Made by a program: the position numbers and the translations under genes | Assembly: GCF_019857185.1 (NCBI RefSeq) | Contig: NZ_JAHWXP010000003.1 | Location: forward strand, 339,501-403,500 | Source: Alteriqipengyuania abyssalis | GTDB lineage: Bacteria > Pseudomonadota > Alphaproteobacteria > Sphingomonadales > Sphingomonadaceae | Length of the DNA: 64,000 nt | Direction of reading: 5' to 3' | Shown: positions 1-9,505 of the stretch, piece after piece | Layout: every line of letters begins with the position of its first letter | How positions within the stretch are numbered: the first letter of the stretch is position 1 | Notes under the pieces: generated by a model | Databases searched by the model: none | What the model was told of the DNA's origin: nothing | What the model saw: the letters and a program-made list of their open reading frames with translations, nothing else

Positions 1-1
1 G

Positions 2-1126
2 CTGCTGCGCTGGACCATGAAACTCTTCCTGCGCGCGCCTTCCCAGGTACCAAAGGGCCTGTTCCTCGCCTGGGGCTTCGGGGTCGGGTTGCTGGTCGCA
101 GCCGCCGTGCTGGCGATTCTTGCGTGGCAGGGCGATTTGATGGCCAGCCTCGGCATTCCGCGCTGGATTGTCATCAGCGCGCCTCTGATTCTCGCAGCAG
201 GCAGCTTCATCCTTCATGCGGTCATCCTGCCACAGGCGGGCGATGCCGCGCGATATCTAAGCCCGGAGCCGAACAATGTCGCCATTCGCCAGCAGATACG
301 CGAGGACGGCGTCTCGCTGATCGAAAAGCTGACCGCAAGTGGTGAGTACGACCGCATCGTCGTCGCCGGGCACAGCCTGGGGTCGGTCATCGCTCACGAC
401 CTTCTGAACTTCGCGTGGAACCGCCTCGACCGATCGAAAATGTCCGCGATCCATGCGGCCGAAAGCGCGGCGATGGAAGCTCTCTCAGCGTTGGAAGCTG
501 CCGCACGCGAACTTGTGGATGCATCGCCAGCCGATCGACCTGCAAGGAGAACCGCCTATCGCAATGCGCAGCGCCTCTATCACAAGACGCTTGCCAGGGG
601 CGAGGTGCCGCTCTGGATCGTGAGCGACCTTGTGACCATCGGCAGTCCGCTGAGCAAGGCCGCCCTGCTGATCGGCCACGATGCCGAGGATCTGCAGGCC
701 CGTATCGCGCGCCGGGAGATACCCTCGTCGCCGCCGGTGCTTGAAGGAAAGAAGGGCAACCGTCGTTTTTCCTATCCACCCGCGAACAAGGTCCGGCGTC
801 CGCACCACGGGGCTGTTTTCGGCCCGACCGTGTGGACCAACCTGTACCATCCACATCGTCTCATCTGGTTTGGCGACATCGTGTCCGGCCCGCTGCGGCA
901 GCTCTTCGGGCCGGCAGTGCTCGATGTCCGGCTTCCGATTGGCAAGCCGCCGGGTTTCCGCCATCTCGATTACTGGAAAAACCCCGACGCCGAGCCCGTG
1001 CACCCGACTATCGTGGCGCTTCGTCGCGCGCTCAATCTGAGGGCGCGGGACACGGACGAGGCATTGTGGGGCGAGGCGGCCGGCAAGGACGAGATCGTCG
1101 CCGACACCGAAATGCAAGGAGACTGA
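2..1126 (+). CDS. Membrane-anchored alpha/beta hydrolase (lipase/esterase-like), 5' partial
   Basis: The reading frame is open to the left edge of the window, so the N-terminus is missing; the first visible Met is at 17. Counting from it, two hydrophobic segments (about residues 14-37 and 50-71) suggest membrane anchoring. A serine-hydrolase nucleophile elbow GHSLGS follows at about 118-123, within a VVAGHSLGS strand-turn-helix context typical of alpha/beta hydrolases. Late His residues, for example in FRHLDYW, could complete a triad. The substrate cannot be read from sequence; a lipid or ester is the usual guess for this architecture. Only five bases separate it from the ATPase gene downstream, so it is very probably co-transcribed with the two nuclease-like genes and part of the same module. 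The fold assignment is fairly secure and the role in the module is inference. Confidence 0.7.
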   Translation: MLRWTMKLFLRAPSQVPKGLFLAWGFGVGLLVAAAVLAILAWQGDLMASLGIPRWIVISAPLILAAGSFILHAVILPQAGDAARYLSPEPNNVAIRQQIREDGVSLIEKLTASGEYDRIVVAGHSLGSVIAHDLLNFAWNRLDRSKMSAIHAAESAAMEALSALEAAARELVDASPADRPARRTAYRNAQRLYHKTLARGEVPLWIVSDLVTIGSPLSKAALLIGHDAEDLQARIARREIPSSPPVLEGKKGNRRFSYPPANKVRRPHHGAVFGPTVWTNLYHPHRLIWFGDIVSGPLRQLFGPAVLDVRLPIGKPPGFRHLDYWKNPDAEPVHPTIVALRRALNLRARDTDEALWGEAAGKDEIVADTEMQGD

Positions 1127-1131
1127 CCGCC

Positions 1132-3426
1132 ATGCGATATGTCGAACGCGACCGGATAGAGCCGCCCGCCGTGTTCGGGAGCGATGATGCGCGGATCAGC
1201 CGCCAACGTGTGCTCGATCTTTTCATGAGCGGCCCGGAAACCCTGCTGCAAACCCGTTCCGACCGTAGCCGATCAATCGCCGATCATCCCGAGGTGCGCC
1301 GCGCGCTCGCAGACCTCTTCAACCATTCCTGCGCCTTTTGCGAGACCCTCATCGATGATCCCAAGGTGTTCCGGTTTCGGCCTGCAGAGGGTGCGCACCC
1401 CGTCACCGACCGCGACTTCGCACACCTCTATTATGCCTGGCTCGCCGATGCCTGGCAGAACCTGTATCCGATTTGCTGGGAGTGCATGCCAGAGGACCCG
1501 TTCCATTTTCCGGTCGAAGGCGGTCGACGAAGCCCGCTCCCCAACCCCGGGCAGCTCCAGCAATATATCGACCGCAGCGATGGTCGCTGGCCCGTCTTTC
1601 CTCTCGACGAGAATGCGATCTTCCTCGACCCGTGCAGCGATCGTAATCTCTGGCGGTATATTCGTTTTGCGAGTGATGGCAGCATCAGCGCTTACCGCAA
1701 TAACCGGCGAGGACGCTCCACAATCCGACATTTTCGACTGGATCGTCGATCGCTGACCAGCGAGCGGGGGGCGTTGTTCGAGCGGTATTTCGCTCAGTTG
1801 TGGGAAGGTCTGGAAACGGAGGACTATGACGATGGCCGCTCTCTGTTTCCCGACAGGGGGCCGTTTAGCGGCGGTTGGCGCATATACCTTCGCGATCTCC
1901 TCGCGCGCGCGCTCAATCGACGCGCGAGCGAGAATGTCGAACGGCAACTGCTCGTTCTGCGCGAACATCGCGATTGGAGGGATCGCCTAGAGCGCGCCCG
2001 TGAAGCCCTCTTCGCACCGCCGGAGCCAGAAGATGCGTGGGACAGCGAGCGGCTCTACCACGAACCTTCTGCTCCCCGAGAGCCTCGGCGGATCGTCATC
2101 CGCAATTTCAAATCGCTGGAGAATATCGAGGTCCGTCTTCCAGCTCCCTCGACCAGCGGCGAACCCAATGCTGCGGCGCTCCTGATCCTGGGGGAGAATG
2201 CGGCGGGCAAAAGCACGATACTCGAAGCCATCGCGATCGCGCTGATGGATACGGAAACACGTCACATGCTGGACCTGAAAGCCGGGCAGCTCGTGCTCAA
2301 TCCCCGGCATCTCGGCGCGCGCGGAGCGCCCAGCCCCGAGCAGGCCGAGGTTGAACTACACTATGCGGAAGGCGAAAAGCAGCATCTGTCGATCGCGCCC
2401 AGCACGTTAGCGAGCAGTGATCATTTCATCGAACAGGACTTTCGCACCCAAGGCGAGCCGAACTCCATCCCGCTGTTCGCCTATGGCGCATTCCGGCAAT
2501 ATCTGGAAGCCCAACGGCGCTACACCAAGCACAAGCATGTCCGCAGCATGTTCCAGACCGATCAGTTGCTCTCCAATCCGGAGCGCTGGCTGCTCGGCCT
2601 GAAGAGAGCCGAGTTCAACATGGCCGTTCGCGCAATGCGGGATGTGTTCAGCATCGATGGCGAGTTCGATGTGCTCGAACGCCGGGACGACCGCGTATTC
2701 GTGGTCCAGAAGCTCGGCGAAGGTGAAGCCGGACCGCTCCAGCACACGCCGCTGACGATCGTTTCTTCGGGATTTCGGGCCGTGCTCGCGATGTTGTGCG
2801 ACATCATGCAGGGGTTGATGGACAAGCGTGTGAACCCGGAGTTCAGCACGCTGGAGACCGCGCGGGGCATCGTCCTGATCGACGAGATCGAGGCGCATCT
2901 GCACCCCCGTTGGAAAATGGCGATCATGACCGGCCTGCGGCGCGCGCTACCGCAGGTCACCTTCATCGCCACATCGCACGATCCCTTGTGCCTGCGCGGC
3001 ATGAAGCCTGGAGAGGTGCTGGTCCTCGAACGGATTCCGGGTGCTCAGGCCGACACCGAGCTTCCGGTGTTCACCCAATCGCTGGTCGATCTTCCCGACA
3101 ATAGTCACTGGACCATCGAACAACTGCTCACCGCCGACTTCTTCCAGCTGCGAAGCACCGAAAACGCCGAAGCCGAACGCCGTCTCGCGCGCATGCAGGA
3201 CAAGCTCGCCCTCGGGGTGACACCGGCTGAAGATCCGGAATTGCAGGCCTACCTCAATGAGATCAGCGGCGCGCTCCCGATCGGCGACAGCGAGGTCCAC
3301 CGGCTGGTGCAGGAAGCCATCGCCACATTCCTCGCCGAGCAGCGCAGCGCGACGCGCGAGCGATTGAAGGGTCTGAAAGAAGAGACCCGCCAAGCCATCG
3401 TCGAAGCGCTGCGGAGCGCCACATGA
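1132..3426 (+). CDS. ABC/OLD-type ATPase with N-terminal degenerate HNH domain (Septu PtuA-like)
   Basis: Protein of 764 residues; the ATG at 1132 is preferred over an in-frame upstream codon that would overlap the hydrolase gene. Residues 64-120 resemble the HNH family found in retron and Septu systems: CAFC at 67-70, WQN at 108-110 and CWEC at 115-118. However, the EHxRPK element of active relatives reads FRFRPA, with Arg81 at the position of the catalytic His, and no CNxxK follows the second Cys pair. It is therefore probably a zinc-binding pseudo-nuclease. The ATPase half has Walker A GENAAGKST (354-362), a signature-like VSSGF (544-548), Walker B IVLIDE (580-585) followed by HLHP, and a SHD switch (615-617), as in RecF/OLD/PtuA ATPases. 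The stop codon overlaps the next ATG (ATGA). In PtuAB the ATPase partners an HNH nuclease; a defence role here is inferred. Confidence 0.8.
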   Translation: MRYVERDRIEPPAVFGSDDARISRQRVLDLFMSGPETLLQTRSDRSRSIADHPEVRRALADLFNHSCAFCETLIDDPKVFRFRPAEGAHPVTDRDFAHLYYAWLADAWQNLYPICWECMPEDPFHFPVEGGRRSPLPNPGQLQQYIDRSDGRWPVFPLDENAIFLDPCSDRNLWRYIRFASDGSISAYRNNRRGRSTIRHFRLDRRSLTSERGALFERYFAQLWEGLETEDYDDGRSLFPDRGPFSGGWRIYLRDLLARALNRRASENVERQLLVLREHRDWRDRLERAREALFAPPEPEDAWDSERLYHEPSAPREPRRIVIRNFKSLENIEVRLPAPSTSGEPNAAALLILGENAAGKSTILEAIAIALMDTETRHMLDLKAGQLVLNPRHLGARGAPSPEQAEVELHYAEGEKQHLSIAPSTLASSDHFIEQDFRTQGEPNSIPLFAYGAFRQYLEAQRRYTKHKHVRSMFQTDQLLSNPERWLLGLKRAEFNMAVRAMRDVFSIDGEFDVLERRDDRVFVVQKLGEGEAGPLQHTPLTIVSSGFRAVLAMLCDIMQGLMDKRVNPEFSTLETARGIVLIDEIEAHLHPRWKMAIMTGLRRALPQVTFIATSHDPLCLRGMKPGEVLVLERIPGAQADTELPVFTQSLVDLPDNSHWTIEQLLTADFFQLRSTENAEAERRLARMQDKLALGVTPAEDPELQAYLNEISGALPIGDSEVHRLVQEAIATFLAEQRSATRERLKGLKEETRQAIVEALRSAT

Positions 3427-4385
3427 GGCAGGTGCCGCGACCCGCCGATGTGCCCGAAATTCTCACGACCAAGGGTGCCGAGGAACGGGAGGAGGCCGTG
3501 CGATACTTCGGGCCGCCGAGGGCGTCCGCGAAGGCCTTCCCGTTTGCGATCTACAAGCACAAGGAAGTAAAAAACGAGCTGGAACGGCTGTTTCGCGGAA
3601 AGTGCGCCTACTGCGAAACCTTCTATGCGAGCGCCCAGTCGATGGACGTCGAGCATTACCGGCCCAAGGGTGCGGTGGAGGGCGACGACGCGCATCCAGG
3701 GTACTGGTGGATCGCGATGGCGTGGGACAATCTCCTGCCAAGCTGCATCGACTGCAATCGCAAGCGCTACCAGATCACACCAAGGGGAGATGTCAGCCAG
3801 GTCCGGCTGCACGAAGCCACGCTCGGTTTCTCCAGGTCCTCGACGGTCGGCACCGGCAAGAAAGACAGCTTCCCGCTCGCTGCAGGCGGGGTTCGCGCGA
3901 CCCGCGCCGATGATCCCCTGTCTGCCGAAAAGCCGCTGCTGCTGAACCCGTGCGAGGAAGAACCGGGGGAGCATCTGGAATACCTGTTCGACCCCGCCAA
4001 CCCTGTCTCCTTCGTGGTCGCGCGCAAGCTGGTGGGGGGCGACCCGGACTTCGCCGGTGACCACTCCCTCAGCCTCAAAGGCACGACTTCGATCCACGTC
4101 TACGGGCTCAACCGTATCGGGCTGGTCCAGGCCCGCACCGAGGTTCTTCGACGGCTCGAGTTTCTCGGCGCCTTGATGATCGACCTGAAGGCGCTGGCGC
4201 AGGACCTCGCGGGTGCGCCGCCCGATGAGACGGTTCGTCGGGCGGAACGGGCGGTCTCCGGATTTGCCGACCGCTTGCTGGTCGAGATGAGAGCGATGGC
4301 CGATCCGGCACGACCCTATTCGGCGATGGTCGCGGCCTGGCTGGACCACTTCGCGTCCAGAGTGGCGGCTCCCGACGGTGTATAG
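3423..4385 (+). CDS. HNH endonuclease (Septu PtuB / retron-associated family)
   Basis: Protein of 320 residues whose ATG overlaps the stop of the ATPase gene by four bases, implying translational coupling and fixed stoichiometry. The HNH core is complete: CAYC at 61-64, the catalytic strand VEHYRPKG with His78, WDNL with Asn103, and CIDCNRKR with Cys108, Cys111 and Asn112. This order matches the HNH proteins that accompany retron and Septu ATPases. Remaining residues are mostly helical by composition with no other recognised domain. It is expected to be the DNA- or RNA-cutting effector, controlled by the ATPase encoded just before it. The pairing of an intact HNH here with a decayed copy inside the ATPase is notable. 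Family assignment is strong; the target and trigger are unknown. Confidence 0.85.
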   Translation: MRQVPRPADVPEILTTKGAEEREEAVRYFGPPRASAKAFPFAIYKHKEVKNELERLFRGKCAYCETFYASAQSMDVEHYRPKGAVEGDDAHPGYWWIAMAWDNLLPSCIDCNRKRYQITPRGDVSQVRLHEATLGFSRSSTVGTGKKDSFPLAAGGVRATRADDPLSAEKPLLLNPCEEEPGEHLEYLFDPANPVSFVVARKLVGGDPDFAGDHSLSLKGTTSIHVYGLNRIGLVQARTEVLRRLEFLGALMIDLKALAQDLAGAPPDETVRRAERAVSGFADRLLVEMRAMADPARPYSAMVAAWLDHFASRVAAPDGV

Positions 4386-4494
4386 AAAGGCTTCCGGAGT
4401 CGGTTAGCTGGCGTTGTATCGACACGCCTGATTTTCGATGCTTATTCGCGCTTTCTGCCACCGCGCAAAGCGGCCCCCTCCGCATGTCCGGCAC

Positions 4495-5790
4495 CTACCC
4501 GACAAGACTCGCGACCTGCTGGACCGCCAGCACGATAAACAGGATCGCCGATCCCGCCAGCGTGATGTTCGAAACCACACCGTTGCGGGCCTCTGCCGGC
4601 AGGCGTTCGGAATTGTTCAGCATCAGCAGCGTGATGGCTAGGAATGGCATGAAGAGCGCCCCGAACGCGCCGTAGATGATTACGAGCAGGAAGGGGCGGT
4701 CCGCGAACAGCAGGAACATCGGCGGAAAGGTCAGCCAGGCAAGGTAGAAACGATAGGCATTGCTCCCCTCGTGCCCGCCCTCCTCGCGGCCCTTCAGCTG
4801 GTACCACCAGTCGGAGAAAAACAGGCTCATCCCCTGCCACACGCCGAGCAGGGATGAGACCGAGGTCGCAGCGAAGCCGATCAGGAACAGGGTCGCAATC
4901 GTCGCGCCAAACCGCTCCTCCAGCACGCCCGAGAGGCCCAGCAGCCCCTGGTCGCTGTCCTGCAGCGCGATACCGGCGGAATGGAGCAGTTCGGCACCCA
5001 CGATCAGCATGGCGATGACGAAAATACCCGTCACGATGTACGCGATGGAATTGTCCACCCGCATCATCGGCAGCCACGGCGTGCCGCGCCATCCCTTGGC
5101 CTGCGTCCAGTAGCCATAGGCGGCGGTGGTGATCGTCCCGCCGACCCCGCCGATTAGGCCCAGCGTGTAGAACAGCGAGCCTTCGGGCAGCGTGAAAGTC
5201 ATACCACCGGCAATATCCGGCAGACTCGGCGCGACGAGGATTGCGAGGCCGACCATGATGACGAACATCGTGCCCACGAGCAGCTTCATCACCGTCTCGA
5301 AGGTCTCGTACTTATTGAACCACACGAAAGCGAAGCCGAACAGGCCCGCGATGATCGCCCAAGCGCGCAGCGAGAGGCCCGGGAACAGCGCGGTCAGCGG
5401 CAGGGCCGTCGCGCTCATCGCGGTGGCGCCGTAGATGAAACCCCAGATGATCACGTAAACGCCAAAATACCAGCTGGTCCATCGGCCCAGCGATCGCCAG
5501 CCCGCAAGGATGGTCGAGCCCGTGGCGAGGTGATAGCGGGCGGAGCCTTCGGACAGCGCGATCTTGACGATGCAGCCGACCACCGCGGCCCACAGCAAGG
5601 CATAGCCGAAGCGCGACCCGGCGATCAGCGTGGCGACCAGATCGCCCGCCCCCACCCCGGTCGCCGCGACCACGATTCCGGGGCCGAGATGGCGCCACAT
5701 CCGGCCGCGCGTCGGTGGAGCATGCCCGGCATCCGGTCCTTCCGGATCGCTCGCATCATGGCGCTGCGCCATTTCGCCCTGGTCGCTCAT
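4495..5790 (-). CDS. Nramp-family transporter with non-canonical metal-site motifs
   Basis: Protein of 431 residues with about eleven hydrophobic segments after a polar 30-residue N-terminus, the usual size and layout of Nramp (SLC11/LeuT-fold) transporters. The first membrane segment carries the family-like LIAGSRFGYALLW stretch. Canonical Nramps have DPGN just before it as a metal ligand motif; here the place is taken by GAGD (about 47-50). The sixth segment, where Mn/Fe transporters have a Met-x-His, reads GGTITTAAYGYWTQ with neither Met nor His. Substrate selectivity is therefore probably not Mn/Fe; Mg-type Nramp relatives also depart from these motifs. It stands alone, convergent with the HNH gene and divergent from the reductase gene. 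Fold confident, substrate uncertain. Confidence 0.75.
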   Translation of the reverse strand: MSDQGEMAQRHDASDPEGPDAGHAPPTRGRMWRHLGPGIVVAATGVGAGDLVATLIAGSRFGYALLWAAVVGCIVKIALSEGSARYHLATGSTILAGWRSLGRWTSWYFGVYVIIWGFIYGATAMSATALPLTALFPGLSLRAWAIIAGLFGFAFVWFNKYETFETVMKLLVGTMFVIMVGLAILVAPSLPDIAGGMTFTLPEGSLFYTLGLIGGVGGTITTAAYGYWTQAKGWRGTPWLPMMRVDNSIAYIVTGIFVIAMLIVGAELLHSAGIALQDSDQGLLGLSGVLEERFGATIATLFLIGFAATSVSSLLGVWQGMSLFFSDWWYQLKGREEGGHEGSNAYRFYLAWLTFPPMFLLFADRPFLLVIIYGAFGALFMPFLAITLLMLNNSERLPAEARNGVVSNITLAGSAILFIVLAVQQVASLVG

Positions 5791-6038
5791 GATTGCGCTC
5801 TCCCTCCTTCGCTCGCTCTATCGGCCCCCCGATGCGAAAGCCCAGGCACGCCGCATATACGCGGGGCGCGTGCCCTGAAACAGCCGCAGTGCATTTGACC
5901 GATGGAATCGGGCGCGGTCAGTGCGGTCTGCTTCGCCAACCAGGTTGTTTGGTGAGGCGAAAATTCCGGCGGTCGTCCTTATAACCACCTTTCACGACCT
6001 TGCATCTCAATCGAAACGGAAGCCCACGGCAGTCTGCA

Positions 6039-7271
6039 ATGGAAACCAGAGACGTCATCATCGTGGGCTCGGGCCATGGGGGAGCGCAGGCAGCTATCGC
6101 GCTGCGGCAGAACGGGTTCGAAGGATCGGTCCTGATGGTCAGTCGGGACAGCGAACTTCCTTACGAGCGCCCCCCCCTGTCCAAGGAATATCTCTCCGGC
6201 GACAAGCCGTTCGAGCGTATCCTGATCCGTCCGGAACAGTTCTGGAGCGACAAGAACATCGAGCTGCGCCTTGGCACCGAGGTCGTCGCGATCGACCCTG
6301 CAATGCACGAGGTGGCGCTGGGGGACGGCGAGAGCATCGGTTACAGCAAACTGATCTGGGCCGCCGGCGGCGCGCCGCGCGCGCTGACCTGCTCGGGCGC
6401 GGACCTGAAGGGCGTTCACGCGGTGCGCACCCGCAGCGATGTCGATGCCCTTATGCGCGAGCTCGCCGATGGCGCGAAGAGGGCGGTGGTGGTCGGTGGC
6501 GGTTATATCGGGCTGGAAGCGGCAGCGGTGCTGCGCAAGCTCGATTGCGAGGTCACGCTGCTCGAAGCCCAGCCGCGCGTTCTTGCACGTGTGGCGGGCG
6601 AGGAACTCAGTGCCTTTTATCAGGCCGAGCATCGCGCCCACGGGGTCGATCTGCGGCTCGAGACGATGGTCGACTGTCTTGAGGGCGAGGATGGCCGGGT
6701 CGCACGCGTACGTCTGCACGATGGCAGCGCGATCGACGCCGACCTGGTCATCGTCGGGATCGGGATCGTGCCTTCGGTCGAGCCGCTGGCGAAGGCAGGC
6801 GCGGTGTGTTCGAACGGCGTCGACGTCGACCGATCATGCCGCACCTCGCTGGAGGACGTCTTTGCAATCGGTGACTGCGCTGCCCATAGCAGCCGGTGGG
6901 CTCAAAATGCGGTGTTGCGGATCGAGTCCGTGCAGAACGCCAACGACATGGCCACCGCCGCGGCGAAGGCGATCTGCGGCGACCCGCAGGATTATGCCGC
7001 GTTCCCGTGGTTCTGGTCCAACCAGTATGACCTGAAGCTTCAGACCGCCGGTCTCTCGACAGGCTACGACGCGGCGGTGCTGCGCGGAGACCCTGCCGCC
7101 CGCTCCTTCTCGGTCGTCTACCTGCGCGATGGACAGGTGATCGCGCTCGACTGCGTCAATGCGATGAAGGATTTCGTCCAAGGCCGGAAGCTGGTCGAGC
7201 AGGGCGTTTCGCCGGACCCCAAGGCGGTCGCCGATACCGGTACCCCGCTGAAGGAACTCGCGACGTCCTGA
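6039..7271 (+). CDS. FAD-dependent ferredoxin reductase (rhodocoxin/putidaredoxin reductase type)
   Basis: Protein of 410 residues. The ATG at 6039 ([10 protein letters not shown]) is preferred over an in-frame TTG at 6000 because the FAD-binding strand begins right after it. It shows the FAD dinucleotide motif GSGHGG (10-15), the NAD-binding [12 protein letters not shown] at about 148-159, a second FAD contact in DVFAIGDCA, and the C-terminal reductase domain with a [10 protein letters not shown] context. It transfers electrons from NAD(P)H to a 2Fe-2S ferredoxin serving P450s or Rieske oxygenases. No ferredoxin or oxygenase gene adjoins it; it may serve the P450 and Rieske enzymes encoded 20-50 kb to the right. 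That functional link is inference. Confidence 0.85.
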
Positions 7272-7330
7272 CTCAGGGACTGCGTCAGCAATTCCTCGCC
7301 ACCTGCCGCGGTATCGCGTAGCCTGATCCG

Positions 7331-8326
7331 ATGCAGGCCGATCGAACATATGGTGGGCGGCCGCGTCGCGTTCTCGTCCTTGGCGGGACCGGCACGATCG
7401 GGCGGGCAACCGTGCGCGCACTGGTCGCGCGCGGGCACGAGGTGGTCTGTCTGGCGAGACGCACATCAGCGCGATCCGCGCCTCCTCACCTCTCCGGGGC
7501 ACAGCTTCGCGCCTGCGATGTGACCGACCCGGCTTCGCTGGCGCGCGACGGCATCCGGGGCGAAAGGTTCGATGCTGTGCTCTCGTGCCTCGCATCGCGT
7601 ACCGGCGCACCGGACGATGCCTGGCGGATCGACCACGACGCCCATCTGGACGCTCTGCGACAGGCACAGGCGGCGGGCATTCCGCACATGATCCTGCTGT
7701 CCGCGATCTGCGTGCAGAAGCCCCAACTGGCTTTCCAGAAAGCCAAGCTGGCATTCGAACACTCGCTGATCGCATCGGGGATCGACTATTCCATCGTGCG
7801 CCCTACAGCTTTCTTCAAATCACTGTCGGGGCAGGTCGAGCGCGTGCGGCAGGGCAAGCCGTTCGTGATGTTCGGGGACGGCACGTTGACCGCCTGCAAG
7901 CCGATCAGCGACGGCGACCTTGCCGCATACCTCGCCGATTGCATCGACAACCCAGAGCGGCGCAACCGCATCCTGCCGATCGGTGGCCCGGGACCGGCGA
8001 TCACGCCGCGCATGCAGGGGGAGGCGCTGTTCGCCATGCTCGGACAGCCGCCGCGCTTCAAACATGTGCCGGTCGCGTTGCTGGATGCTATCGTCCTGAT
8101 GCTCGGCACCATGGGGCGCGTCGTCCCTTCGCTTAGAACCAAGGCCGAACTTGCGCGCATCGGACGCTACTACGCGACCGAGTCCATGCTCGTGTTGAAC
8201 CCCGAAACCGGCTTCTACGATGCCGAGGCGACGCCCTCGACCGGCTCCGAAACGCTGTTCGACTATTACGCGCAGCTGCTCAGCGGAGAGGCGCAGGCCG
8301 AGCGCGGCGAGCATGCCGTCTTCTAG
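7331..8326 (+). CDS. bciA: NAD(P)H-dependent divinyl chlorophyllide 8-vinyl reductase (BciA/DVR type)
   Basis: Protein of 331 residues with an N-terminal Rossmann GGTGTIG motif (atypical NmrA-like SDR). It contains LSAICVQKPQLAFQKAK, SIVRPTAFFKSL, GDGTLTACKPISD and a C-terminal YDAEATPSTGSETL, all of which I recognise as conserved in BciA and plant DVR. The enzyme reduces the C8 vinyl group of divinyl (proto)chlorophyllide in bacteriochlorophyll or chlorophyll synthesis. No other photosynthesis gene lies in the window, so it is either a detached member of the pathway or a relict. Start at 7331 is the first ATG, 59 bases after the reductase gene; a shared transcript is possible. The alternative is an unassigned NAD-dependent epimerase. 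Confidence 0.75.
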   Translation: MQADRTYGGRPRRVLVLGGTGTIGRATVRALVARGHEVVCLARRTSARSAPPHLSGAQLRACDVTDPASLARDGIRGERFDAVLSCLASRTGAPDDAWRIDHDAHLDALRQAQAAGIPHMILLSAICVQKPQLAFQKAKLAFEHSLIASGIDYSIVRPTAFFKSLSGQVERVRQGKPFVMFGDGTLTACKPISDGDLAAYLADCIDNPERRNRILPIGGPGPAITPRMQGEALFAMLGQPPRFKHVPVALLDAIVLMLGTMGRVVPSLRTKAELARIGRYYATESMLVLNPETGFYDAEATPSTGSETLFDYYAQLLSGEAQAERGEHAVF

Positions 8327-8422
8327 AGGCTAGGACAGCCACTCGGAGCGGTTCCCCACGCAAATGCGCTGTTCCGATCCATGAGGCCTGGGCGCCATGA
8401 GACAGGTGAGGATCGGGCAGCT

Positions 8423-9505
8423 CTAGAAGCCGACCACCCACGCCTCGTCCGCCGGGGTCTTGCCCATGGCGACTGCACTCCACGCCTGCTTCACGGCACC
8501 ATCGCCCTGCTCGCGGTGGATCGTCAGCCAATCGCGCGATTTCAGCGCGGTGTCTTTCCAGAAGTCGTGCGCGCGCTTTTCGAACACGCCCGGGCCCCAC
8601 TCCTTGTGGCGCTTCTGGATATGGCCGGGCGCGAAGAACATCTCGCTGCGCTCCCGAATGAAACCGGGCGGCATGGTGTTCGCGTCATAATGGGTGACGC
8701 CCACGTTGGAGGTGTATTTCATGCTGTCGCCCAGATGATCGTGCAGCCGCCCGAGCACGCCGCCATCGCCCGACATGTCGATGATGACGGTCGGAATGCT
8801 CGCGTCGATATCGTCCAGCGAGTCGTAGGTCAGGACCTCGTCGTAGAGGCCCAGCTTTTCGACCGACGCCACGTTGCGGGGCGAGGTGACGCCGACGCTC
8901 CTGGGCGCAGACGCATCGGCGGCGATCGCATAGGCGCACCCGATCGCGGTCTTGGACGACGCGCTCAGCACGACGACCTGACTTGCTCCGTACCAGTCAT
9001 GGTCCTGCATGAAGTCATAGATGCAGAAGGATGTCGCATAGAGCGGGAACAGCACCATGTGCGCATCGTCCAGGTCGCCGTCGTAATCAGGCTCTGCCCC
9101 GACACGGGTGTAGGAATTGTACACCGGCGGCAGACCCGCGCGATGCTGCGCGCCATCGACGAAGCGGCCTTCGCTGACCTTCGCCGGTTGCATGACGAGG
9201 TGGCTCGCCATGGGGAAGAAGCCGTAGATCCGCTCTCCAACCGGCACCTCCGGATGCGCGGATTCAACGATCTCGGCAAAACCCCATACCGGAATCACGC
9301 CCTCCCCCTCGCTTTCGACCGGGAAGAACTTCCAGTATCCGATGCGATCCCCCATCACGCCATAGGTGACGTTGTTCGCGGTCAGCGCGAAGTGGTCGAT
9401 CCGCGCGAGGACCGCTCCATCGCCGAGCGGCGGCACTTCCCGCGTGTCGATACGGCCTTCGCGGATATTGTCCTTCTGGACCAGGAACTGGCTGGTTGTC
9501 GTCAT
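8423..9505 (-). CDS. DUF2855 family protein (MDR-like)
   Basis: Protein of 360 residues belonging to the DUF2855 family, which is distantly related to medium-chain dehydrogenases. Visible are a GroES-like N-terminal half (VWGFAEIVES, VPVGERIYGFFPMASHL) and a Rossmann-like region beginning VVVLSASSKTAIGCAYA, without the usual catalytic zinc cysteines. No reaction is established for the family. It is convergent with bciA, and 90 bases separate its start from the downstream end of the histidine kinase gene; both lie on the minus strand and need not be co-transcribed. The 96-base gap to bciA shows no convincing terminator. Assignment rests on overall sequence character rather than a single motif. 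Confidence 0.7.
   Translation of the reverse strand: MTTTSQFLVQKDNIREGRIDTREVPPLGDGAVLARIDHFALTANNVTYGVMGDRIGYWKFFPVESEGEGVIPVWGFAEIVESAHPEVPVGERIYGFFPMASHLVMQPAKVSEGRFVDGAQHRAGLPPVYNSYTRVGAEPDYDGDLDDAHMVLFPLYATSFCIYDFMQDHDWYGASQVVVLSASSKTAIGCAYAIAADASAPRSVGVTSPRNVASVEKLGLYDEVLTYDSLDDIDASIPTVIIDMSGDGGVLGRLHDHLGDSMKYTSNVGVTHYDANTMPPGFIRERSEMFFAPGHIQKRHKEWGPGVFEKRAHDFWKDTALKSRDWLTIHREQGDGAVKQAWSAVAMGKTPADEAWVVGF

Follow-up and report, generated by a model that had tools for sequence, protein, structure and literature searches.

A 64,000-nucleotide stretch of the Alteriqipengyuania abyssalis genome (contig NZ_JAHWXP010000003.1, positions 339,501 to 403,500; hereafter the window) carries near its start two overlapping genes of the anti-phage Septu family, a PtuA-type ATPase and the HNH nuclease PtuB, and the ATPase bears at its N-terminus a second, altered copy of PtuB. 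A preliminary description made from the sequence had noted two overlapping genes here, each with an HNH-type domain, and its coordinates (1132–4385) proved right, with the ATPase reading frame at 1132–3426 and the HNH frame at 3423–4385. The parts of the pair, in window coordinates, are as follows.

1132–3426, plus strand: ptuA-type ATPase gene with an N-terminal PtuB-like domain (P0001, 764 residues), assigned by PADLOC model PDLC00291, PtuA1
1132–1791, plus strand: PtuB-like putative pseudo-nuclease domain, residues 1 to ~220 of the ATPase, assigned by hhalign, PADLOC model PDLC00316 and profile A1
1330–1488, plus strand: HNH core of the pseudo-nuclease domain, from sequence and alignment
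1792–2085, plus strand: linker, residues 221–318, with several helices in the model, from predicted secondary structure
2086–3423, plus strand: PtuA ABC-type ATPase domain, residues 319–764, from Pfam AAA_21 and AAA_15, motifs and Foldseek
3423–4385, plus strand: ptuB, HNH nuclease gene (P0002, 320 residues), assigned by PADLOC model PDLC00329, PtuB1 (E = 6.3e-130)

The two genes lie on the same strand and overlap by four nucleotides (ATGA), an arrangement that points to a single operon. A scan for promoters and terminators gave no signal (1 and 3 sites, respectively, where shuffled sequences yielded 0.8 and 4.2), and no Rfam family matched at its gathering score within window positions 1–9000. 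PDLC00291 covers residues 1–762 of P0001 (E = 2.5e-275), in which a Walker A motif (GENAAGKS) and a Walker B motif (VLIDEIE) can be read, and the NCBIfam PtuA model NF041760 scores 83.9 bits on it, under the 500-bit equivalog cutoff for the retron Ec78 PtuA. P0002 contains VEHYRPKG and WDNLLPSCIDCNRKR together with both Cys pairs, with E77, H78, K82, N103 and N112 all in place; TIGR02646 matches it at 8.5e-10 and 38.9 bits, under that model's 52.15-bit cutoff.

Independent comparisons relate the front of the ATPase to PtuB. In a single BLASTP comparison, ATPase residues 1–318 matched the HNH protein at 41% over 74 residues (E = 9e-12), and in a search of the organism's own genome the N-terminal part of P0001 matched P0002 at 44% over residues 48–119 (E = 9.3e-8). 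Profile-profile alignment of 14 fused domains with 17 PtuBs (hhalign) gave a probability of 100 and an E-value of 3.6e-42, spanning residues 1–219 of the ATPase and 1–245 of PtuB. These three results rule out an N-terminal domain unrelated to HNH proteins, a possibility that the preliminary description had raised against itself, and the searches against HNH and PtuB families agree: the PADLOC PtuB model PDLC00316 matches P0001 residues 51–224 (E = 2.7e-20), and profile A1, made from fused ATPases, matches a PtuB chain of known structure (22bv_F; profile positions 36–211, E = 1.9e-10). The fused domain extends past the HNH core into the DPxxHL and LNR region, and since homology to PtuB covers this region too, we describe the front of the ATPase as a copy of PtuB. 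The domain placed earlier at residues 50–130 is therefore real but was drawn too short, the homologous stretch running from residue 1 to ~220. In three loci from other replicons (L022, L143 and L144; loci are numbered with L and genomes with G), the PtuB profile continues into the linker and ends some 50 residues short of the ATPase match, an indication that most of PtuB was included in the fusion.

In HNH enzymes, the acidic residue and His of the [DE]-H pair supply the general base, and the Asn or His of the third motif binds the metal. The segment V-E77-H78-Y-R80-P81-K82 of the window PtuB corresponds to V79-F80-R81-F82-R83-P84-A85 in the ATPase, exactly as had been described, so that F80-R81-F82-R83-P84 stands for E-H-x-R-P. 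The two Cys pairs and the middle Asn remain, again as described (C67xxC70, C115xxC118 and N110), and the final CN has become C118-M119. With C67, C70, C115, C118 and N110, the fused domain of the window has the features of a predicted zinc-binding HNH fold; with F80-R81 and C118-M119 at the catalytic places, it lacks those of an active HNH enzyme. The reported His substitution is real, the label His78 being PtuB numbering and R81 the ATPase equivalent. No functional His was found elsewhere in the fold, as H184 of PtuB, otherwise kept, is not His in the window.

We then compared the two copies across loci gathered from plasmids, genome contigs, viral contigs and further genome groups, with duplicates and congeners removed. 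Residues were counted after removal of duplicates, of L056, of two congeners (L150 and L151) and of L025 (which lacks the front of the domain), and L142 was excluded from the domain table. In 31 distinct PtuBs, C61, C64, E77, H78, R80, P81, K82, N103, C108, C111 and N112 are invariant. The 32 distinct fused domains, in PtuB numbering, all keep the four Cys and N103, and all but one keep R80 (31/32) and likewise P81 (31/32), whereas H78 is found in 9, an acid at position 77 in 14, K82 in 6 and the third-motif N112 in 10. The full [DE]-H...N set occurs in two of the 32, L031 and L057. Calling the domain 'dead', as the preliminary description did, is apt for the window, where the catalytic residues are lost, but is no rule for a family in which 9 of 32 members keep the His and 2 of 32 the [DE]-H...N set. 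Besides the Cys, the middle Asn and the Arg-Pro pair, 27 more positions are at least 80% conserved among the fused domains. Y94, W96, F150, P176, L229, R231 and R238 are common to both copies, and F41 and Y44, invariant in PtuB, are unconserved in the fused domains. On these residue patterns, the fused domain is predicted to be a PtuB fold that has been retained after loss of its active site. In L031 and L057 the fused domain has kept D-H together with K, N and the Asn of the third motif, and these systems may possibly contain two active nucleases each.

The fused arrangement is widespread. We found 33 distinct loci with the fused domain, on 20 plasmid records, 4 genome contigs, 3 viral contigs, 5 other genomes and the window, ranging over three proteobacterial classes, one Bacillota plasmid and viral contigs (hosts: Rhizobium, Sinorhizobium, Mesorhizobium, Roseovarius, Phaeobacter, Paracoccus, Sphingomonas, Gluconobacter, Janthinobacterium, Klebsiella, Pseudomonas and Priestia). 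In 31 of the 33, the next gene downstream is ptuB, and the co-occurrence of both genes on which the preliminary description had staked its reading thus holds in other genomes. The two loci without PtuB are both broken: L028 has a fragment of the domain followed by an unrelated gene, and in L155 the ATPase open reading frame ends early. At L025, where the front of the fused domain is missing, a transposase adjoins. The spacing between ptuA and ptuB is −14 to +8 nucleotides in the measured loci; for L143 it is +38 by the chosen start, but a 4-nucleotide overlap in the annotation, and for L145 a 14-nucleotide overlap is known from annotation only. L145 differs in layout, its PtuB-like domain and ATPase occupying two overlapping open reading frames (L145:3977–4894 and 4765–6270), followed by ptuB. 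Because the arrangement recurs in many unrelated bacteria, it is probably useful.

These loci came from several surveys. On plasmids, 94 records matched P0001, of which 60 were listed and 23 taken: 20 fused or fragmentary (L012–L028 and L143–L145) and three non-fused (L146–L148); the other plasmid queries gave no further fused record among those taken. A scan of genome contigs gave at least 25 loci, at least 4 of them fused, and 80 of 90 viral-contig loci were kept, with 4 fused, two of which are near-copies. Under strict cut-offs the fused ptuA is rare: full-length matches numbered 3 in 148 relatives, the organism's own genome included. In 398 genomes of the phylum, at least 5 matches covered the N-terminal part (own genome included, one gene truncated), and at E = 1e-80 two further groups had the fused ptuA in at least 2 of 248 and at least 1 of 295 genomes. 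Among 385 genomes of the class, a scan with PDLC00291 (1e-30) matched at least 2, the fused form being confined to the own genome among the matches listed. The 398-, 248-, 295- and 385-genome figures are lower bounds, with at most two to four candidates scored per genome. The scans were strict and their counts are minimum counts, so they show the diversity of fused loci, not their frequency. An empty site in the genus was sought by looking for both flanking genes in 10 genomes, and none was shown; of the genomes without the fused ptuA, only G005 has both at the thresholds applied, ~570 kb apart.

A tree of 75 domains contains a branch (support 97/89; 100% of 200 bootstrap trees) that separates the 31 partner PtuBs from all 32 fused domains, which share their side with 12 non-fused PtuBs, drawn from a hand-picked comparison set of 17 of which 5 were left out of the tree. 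This supported split argues that the two copies parted long ago. Many pairings within the fused-domain and PtuB sets mirror each other in the tree, consistent with joint inheritance as an operon, and by plain distances the nearest neighbours of the fused domain and of PtuB agree in 18 of 30 loci. When the tree is drawn with a midpoint root, 7 of the 32 fused domains (L022, L026, L027, L054, L055, L143 and L144) lie nearer to non-fused PtuBs, on weak branches, and the fused domains may stem from one fusion or from several. The fewest changes that explain the residues on the tree are four for the His and two for the third-motif Asn, implying that inactivation probably took more than one route.

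Selection appears to have kept what remains. Between the window and two congeners, the ratio of non-synonymous to synonymous substitution rates (dN/dS) is 0.32 for residues 1–230, compared with 0.16 for the ATPase and 0.17–0.18 for PtuB, values that show a fused domain under purifying selection, constrained but more loosely than the ATPase and PtuB. Mean pairwise distances over 30 loci are 0.69 for the fused domain and 0.66 for both the ATPase and PtuB. Taken together, these comparisons describe the fused domain as an old, apparently repeatedly inactivated PtuB copy that is kept as a fold. In a separate observation, the synonymous divergence of the N-terminal domain (residues 1–230) between the window and G003/G009 is 0.20, roughly threefold the 0.06 of the ATPase, a pattern that recombination of one part of ptuA might leave.

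The closest described relatives are the solved PtuAB complexes. The Escherichia coli PtuAB Septu system (8ee4, 8ee7, 8eea and 8sux) has the same order as the window, an ABC-type PtuA ATPase followed by an HNH PtuB, and its ATPase domain matches the window by sequence and fold (template modelling (TM) score by target length up to 0.61 in the rows listed). A Foldseek search with an AlphaFold model of P0001 (21 rows; mean predicted local distance difference test (pLDDT) 79; predicted TM score (pTM) 0.62) returned 205 chains at E ≤ 0.001, and the best 50 of these are all Septu or retron entries containing PtuA; among the rows listed, TM scores are 0.28–0.37 by query length and 0.44–0.61 by target length. 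The N-terminal domain is modelled mostly at pLDDT 85–94 in ten-residue blocks. The solved Septu PtuAs that we found are 456–552 residues long and match best in the ATPase part, leaving the N-terminal domain of the window unmatched in the rows listed. Accordingly, the earlier statement that described PtuAs have no such domain fits these solved chains, but it does not extend to PADLOC-DB, where the PtuA1 models PDLC00291, PDLC00288 and PDLC00292 (726–773 positions) align with the window ATPase, starting at residue 1 or 4 and ending at 761–762, and carry just the label 'AAA ATPase domain'. As these three models, dating from 2023, span the N-terminal region, such proteins were already catalogued as PtuA. 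The suggestion of a new Septu variant is borne out in part: with family matches for both PtuA and the intact PtuB, the window contains a real, old Septu variant and not a new kind of system. The fused domain was not found described in the literature searched on Septu, PtuA, PtuB and pseudo-nucleases, a set that was covered in part and that excludes the key structure and discovery papers. Older surveys of ABC ATPases may mention it.

Type I-A retrons (Ec78/Eco7 and Ec83), in which a reverse transcriptase accompanies PtuA and PtuB, draw on the same families: profile A1 matches their PtuB chains, and it matches the solved type I-A retron PtuAs in the ATPase part. A type I-A retron, also called Septu type II, has a reverse transcriptase gene ahead of ptuA (PMC8565338). 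No reverse transcriptase (PF00078) matched anywhere in the window's own genome, where 3 of 14 control genomes were positive, which rules out a type I-A retron; Pfam likewise found none among 7 neighbouring genes, the gene upstream of ptuA being hydrolase-like. Reverse transcriptase genes do occur near two other fused pairs, at L027:6955–7968 (Priestia; convergent, best matched by PADLOC RT_III-A) and at L143:7920–8819 (Rhizobium; weakly matched by any model), and we take both as separate neighbours, not part of the fused ptuAB. A parallel outside these families is offered by the RNase II pseudo-nucleases (Ssd1-like), whose inactive relatives arose repeatedly and work as RNA-binding proteins; as in the window, an inactive relative is kept beside an active nuclease, but those proteins are fungal, belong to another nuclease family and are not reported, in the part of the study drawn on here, to be fused to an ATPase (PMC8097288).

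We consider it somewhat probable that the window represents a distinct Septu sub-lineage in which PtuA carries a non-catalytic PtuB-like subunit that serves assembly or regulation. The evidence is of the sequence kind: homology, catalytic loss, retention of the scaffold, purifying selection and the close company of an intact PtuB. In studied relatives, mutating the Walker motifs of PtuA or the H-N-H residues of PtuB abolishes Septu defence, and Septu cleaves tRNA-Tyr (PMC13096335); a PtuA6:PtuB2 complex is described for Septu, and the PtuAB of retron Ec83 is kept inactive by its multicopy single-stranded DNA (PMC12948488). By analogy, we infer that the window system uses the same core. PtuA oligomers would restrain or position the live PtuB, and the pseudo-PtuB would dock or pair with the live PtuB, or occupy the places for PtuB on PtuA, leaving the ATPase to set the dosage of the nuclease and its activation. 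Infection would then change the state of the ATPase, and the live PtuB would cut DNA or tRNA, as in the studied relatives, stopping phage growth.

Several results weigh against this account. Two fused domains, those of L031 and L057, keep the full catalytic set and may still cut. The placing of the N-terminal domain on the ATPase in the AlphaFold model is not to be trusted, because of its pTM, and the PtuB model (P0002, pLDDT 77) matched no solved structure at E < 0.001, its one weak match being the retron Ec83 entry 9e8z (E = 0.019). Co-evolution as a sign of contact was also rejected: distances of the fused domain and PtuB correlate at 0.75, with a partial correlation of 0.21 once the ATPase distance is removed, so that the correlation is mostly shared ancestry.

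Instead of docking, the fused domain might recognise the substrate, binding DNA or tRNA and presenting it to the live PtuB, a role close to the DNA recognition proposed in the preliminary description. The retained zinc fold and Arg-Pro pair would suit this, as would the net positive charge of 11 fused domains, and inactive RNase II relatives act as RNA-binding proteins (PMC8097288). On average, however, the fused domain is slightly acidic, with a mean net charge over 32 rows of −1.6, whereas the corresponding part of PtuB averages +2.2 (means that include two congeners, with the end of the PtuB part set by a simple pattern); 19 rows are negative, 11 positive and 2 zero, and the window stands at −6 against 0 for its PtuB part. 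The residues that were lost are moreover those of the active site. Charge is weak evidence, and DNA recognition finds no support in it; docking or assembly would fit better, and we hold substrate recognition to be unlikely. A further alternative is an inhibitor in cis, by which the domain would mimic PtuB or its substrate and block PtuB until the ATPase is triggered. The acidic domain of the window is consistent with it, as is the presence of PtuB in all the fused loci found whose ATPase is complete; sequence does not distinguish it from docking, nor either of them from substrate binding. We rate it as quite improbable. The view that the domain is left over from a fusion, decaying and by now without a role, would agree with its higher dN/dS (0.32 against 0.16–0.18 for the ATPase and PtuB), with the various ways in which its catalytic residues were replaced and with the broken loci L025, L028, L145 and L155, but a dN/dS well under 1, four Cys and a middle Asn kept in 32 of 32 and the 27 further conserved positions make this very hard to credit. 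Equally remote is a second nuclease acting through the old site or another set of residues, for which the D-H...K...N...N of L031 and L057 would speak, since the window lacks the acid, the His, the Lys and the third-motif Asn, and the sole other position at which His is kept in at least 80% (PtuB H184, 81%) is not His there.

The way in which PtuA retains and frees PtuB is a current question for both Septu and retron effectors. The fused domain offers a covalent handle with which to map the sites for PtuB-like folds on PtuA, and the 2 members with the full catalytic set, set beside the 30 without, constitute a natural experiment.

The gene upstream of ptuA enters the window from its left edge.

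1–1126, plus strand: 3' part of gene A (P0006), alpha/beta-hydrolase-like from sequence motifs; whole gene at L003:13226–14626

Gene A encodes 466 residues, starts 275 nucleotides upstream of the window and stops 5 nucleotides before the ATG of ptuA. It shows VLIHGIGEQ, GHSLG and hydrophobic stretches, with weak Pfam matches and no match in PADLOC or NCBIfam at 0.001. Homologues occur in nine plasmid records, eight of which have a fused ptuA within ~3 kb; these eight represent at least four distinct loci, with three records from S. meliloti and three from Phaeobacter, in the latter of which gene A is broken. In the ninth record (Roseobacter, L161), the 13 kb examined show no ptuA gene. Within the family, 3 of 119 genomes have gene A: the own genome and G003, beside the fused ptuA in both, and G1369, where neither ptuA nor ptuB was matched in the 12 kb examined. 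Both congeners retain gene A beside ptuAB. From this we infer that gene A belongs to the Septu system of the window.

Lipase-like genes lie near 13 of the 30 loci in which domain, ATPase and PtuB are all present (L145 in split form): a gene-A homologue at eight (broken in L017), a patatin behind ptuB at five and a Tle1-like gene at one, L030 having two. As the flanks searched were mostly 4–5 kb and the queries came from these same loci, the count is a lower bound. Patatin homologues were found in 16 plasmid records, 10 of which also have a fused ptuA within ~3 kb, among the matches listed and with some near-copies. Because lipase-like genes are linked to the fused ptuA in this way (13/30 loci; 8/9 and 10/16 plasmid records), one may imagine a three-part Septu branch in which the pseudo-PtuB, built into a PtuA scaffold, is a regulatory hub that couples the live PtuB nuclease to a membrane-acting enzyme of the lipase class (gene A, patatin or Tle1-like), a reading that we put forward as speculative and on the unlikely side. 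The presence of these neighbours hints at a second effector in some Septu systems.

In one branch of the fused loci, the patatin-like phospholipase gene sits directly behind ptuB (L013:7117–8823, L014:7141–8838, L016:7266–9077, L030:8105–9820 and L156:1129–3012). Upstream of the window, a patatin-family gene (PF01734; L003:11872–13107, minus strand) diverges from gene A; the searches for lipase-like neighbours did not tie it to the patatins behind ptuB. A Tle1-like (DUF2235) phospholipase gene lies near the fused ptuAB at L012:7276–8406, and others lie near a non-fused ptuA (L148:2756–3862, L142:1–906 and L033:524–1621), so that the association with Tle1-like genes is shared by fused and non-fused ptuA.

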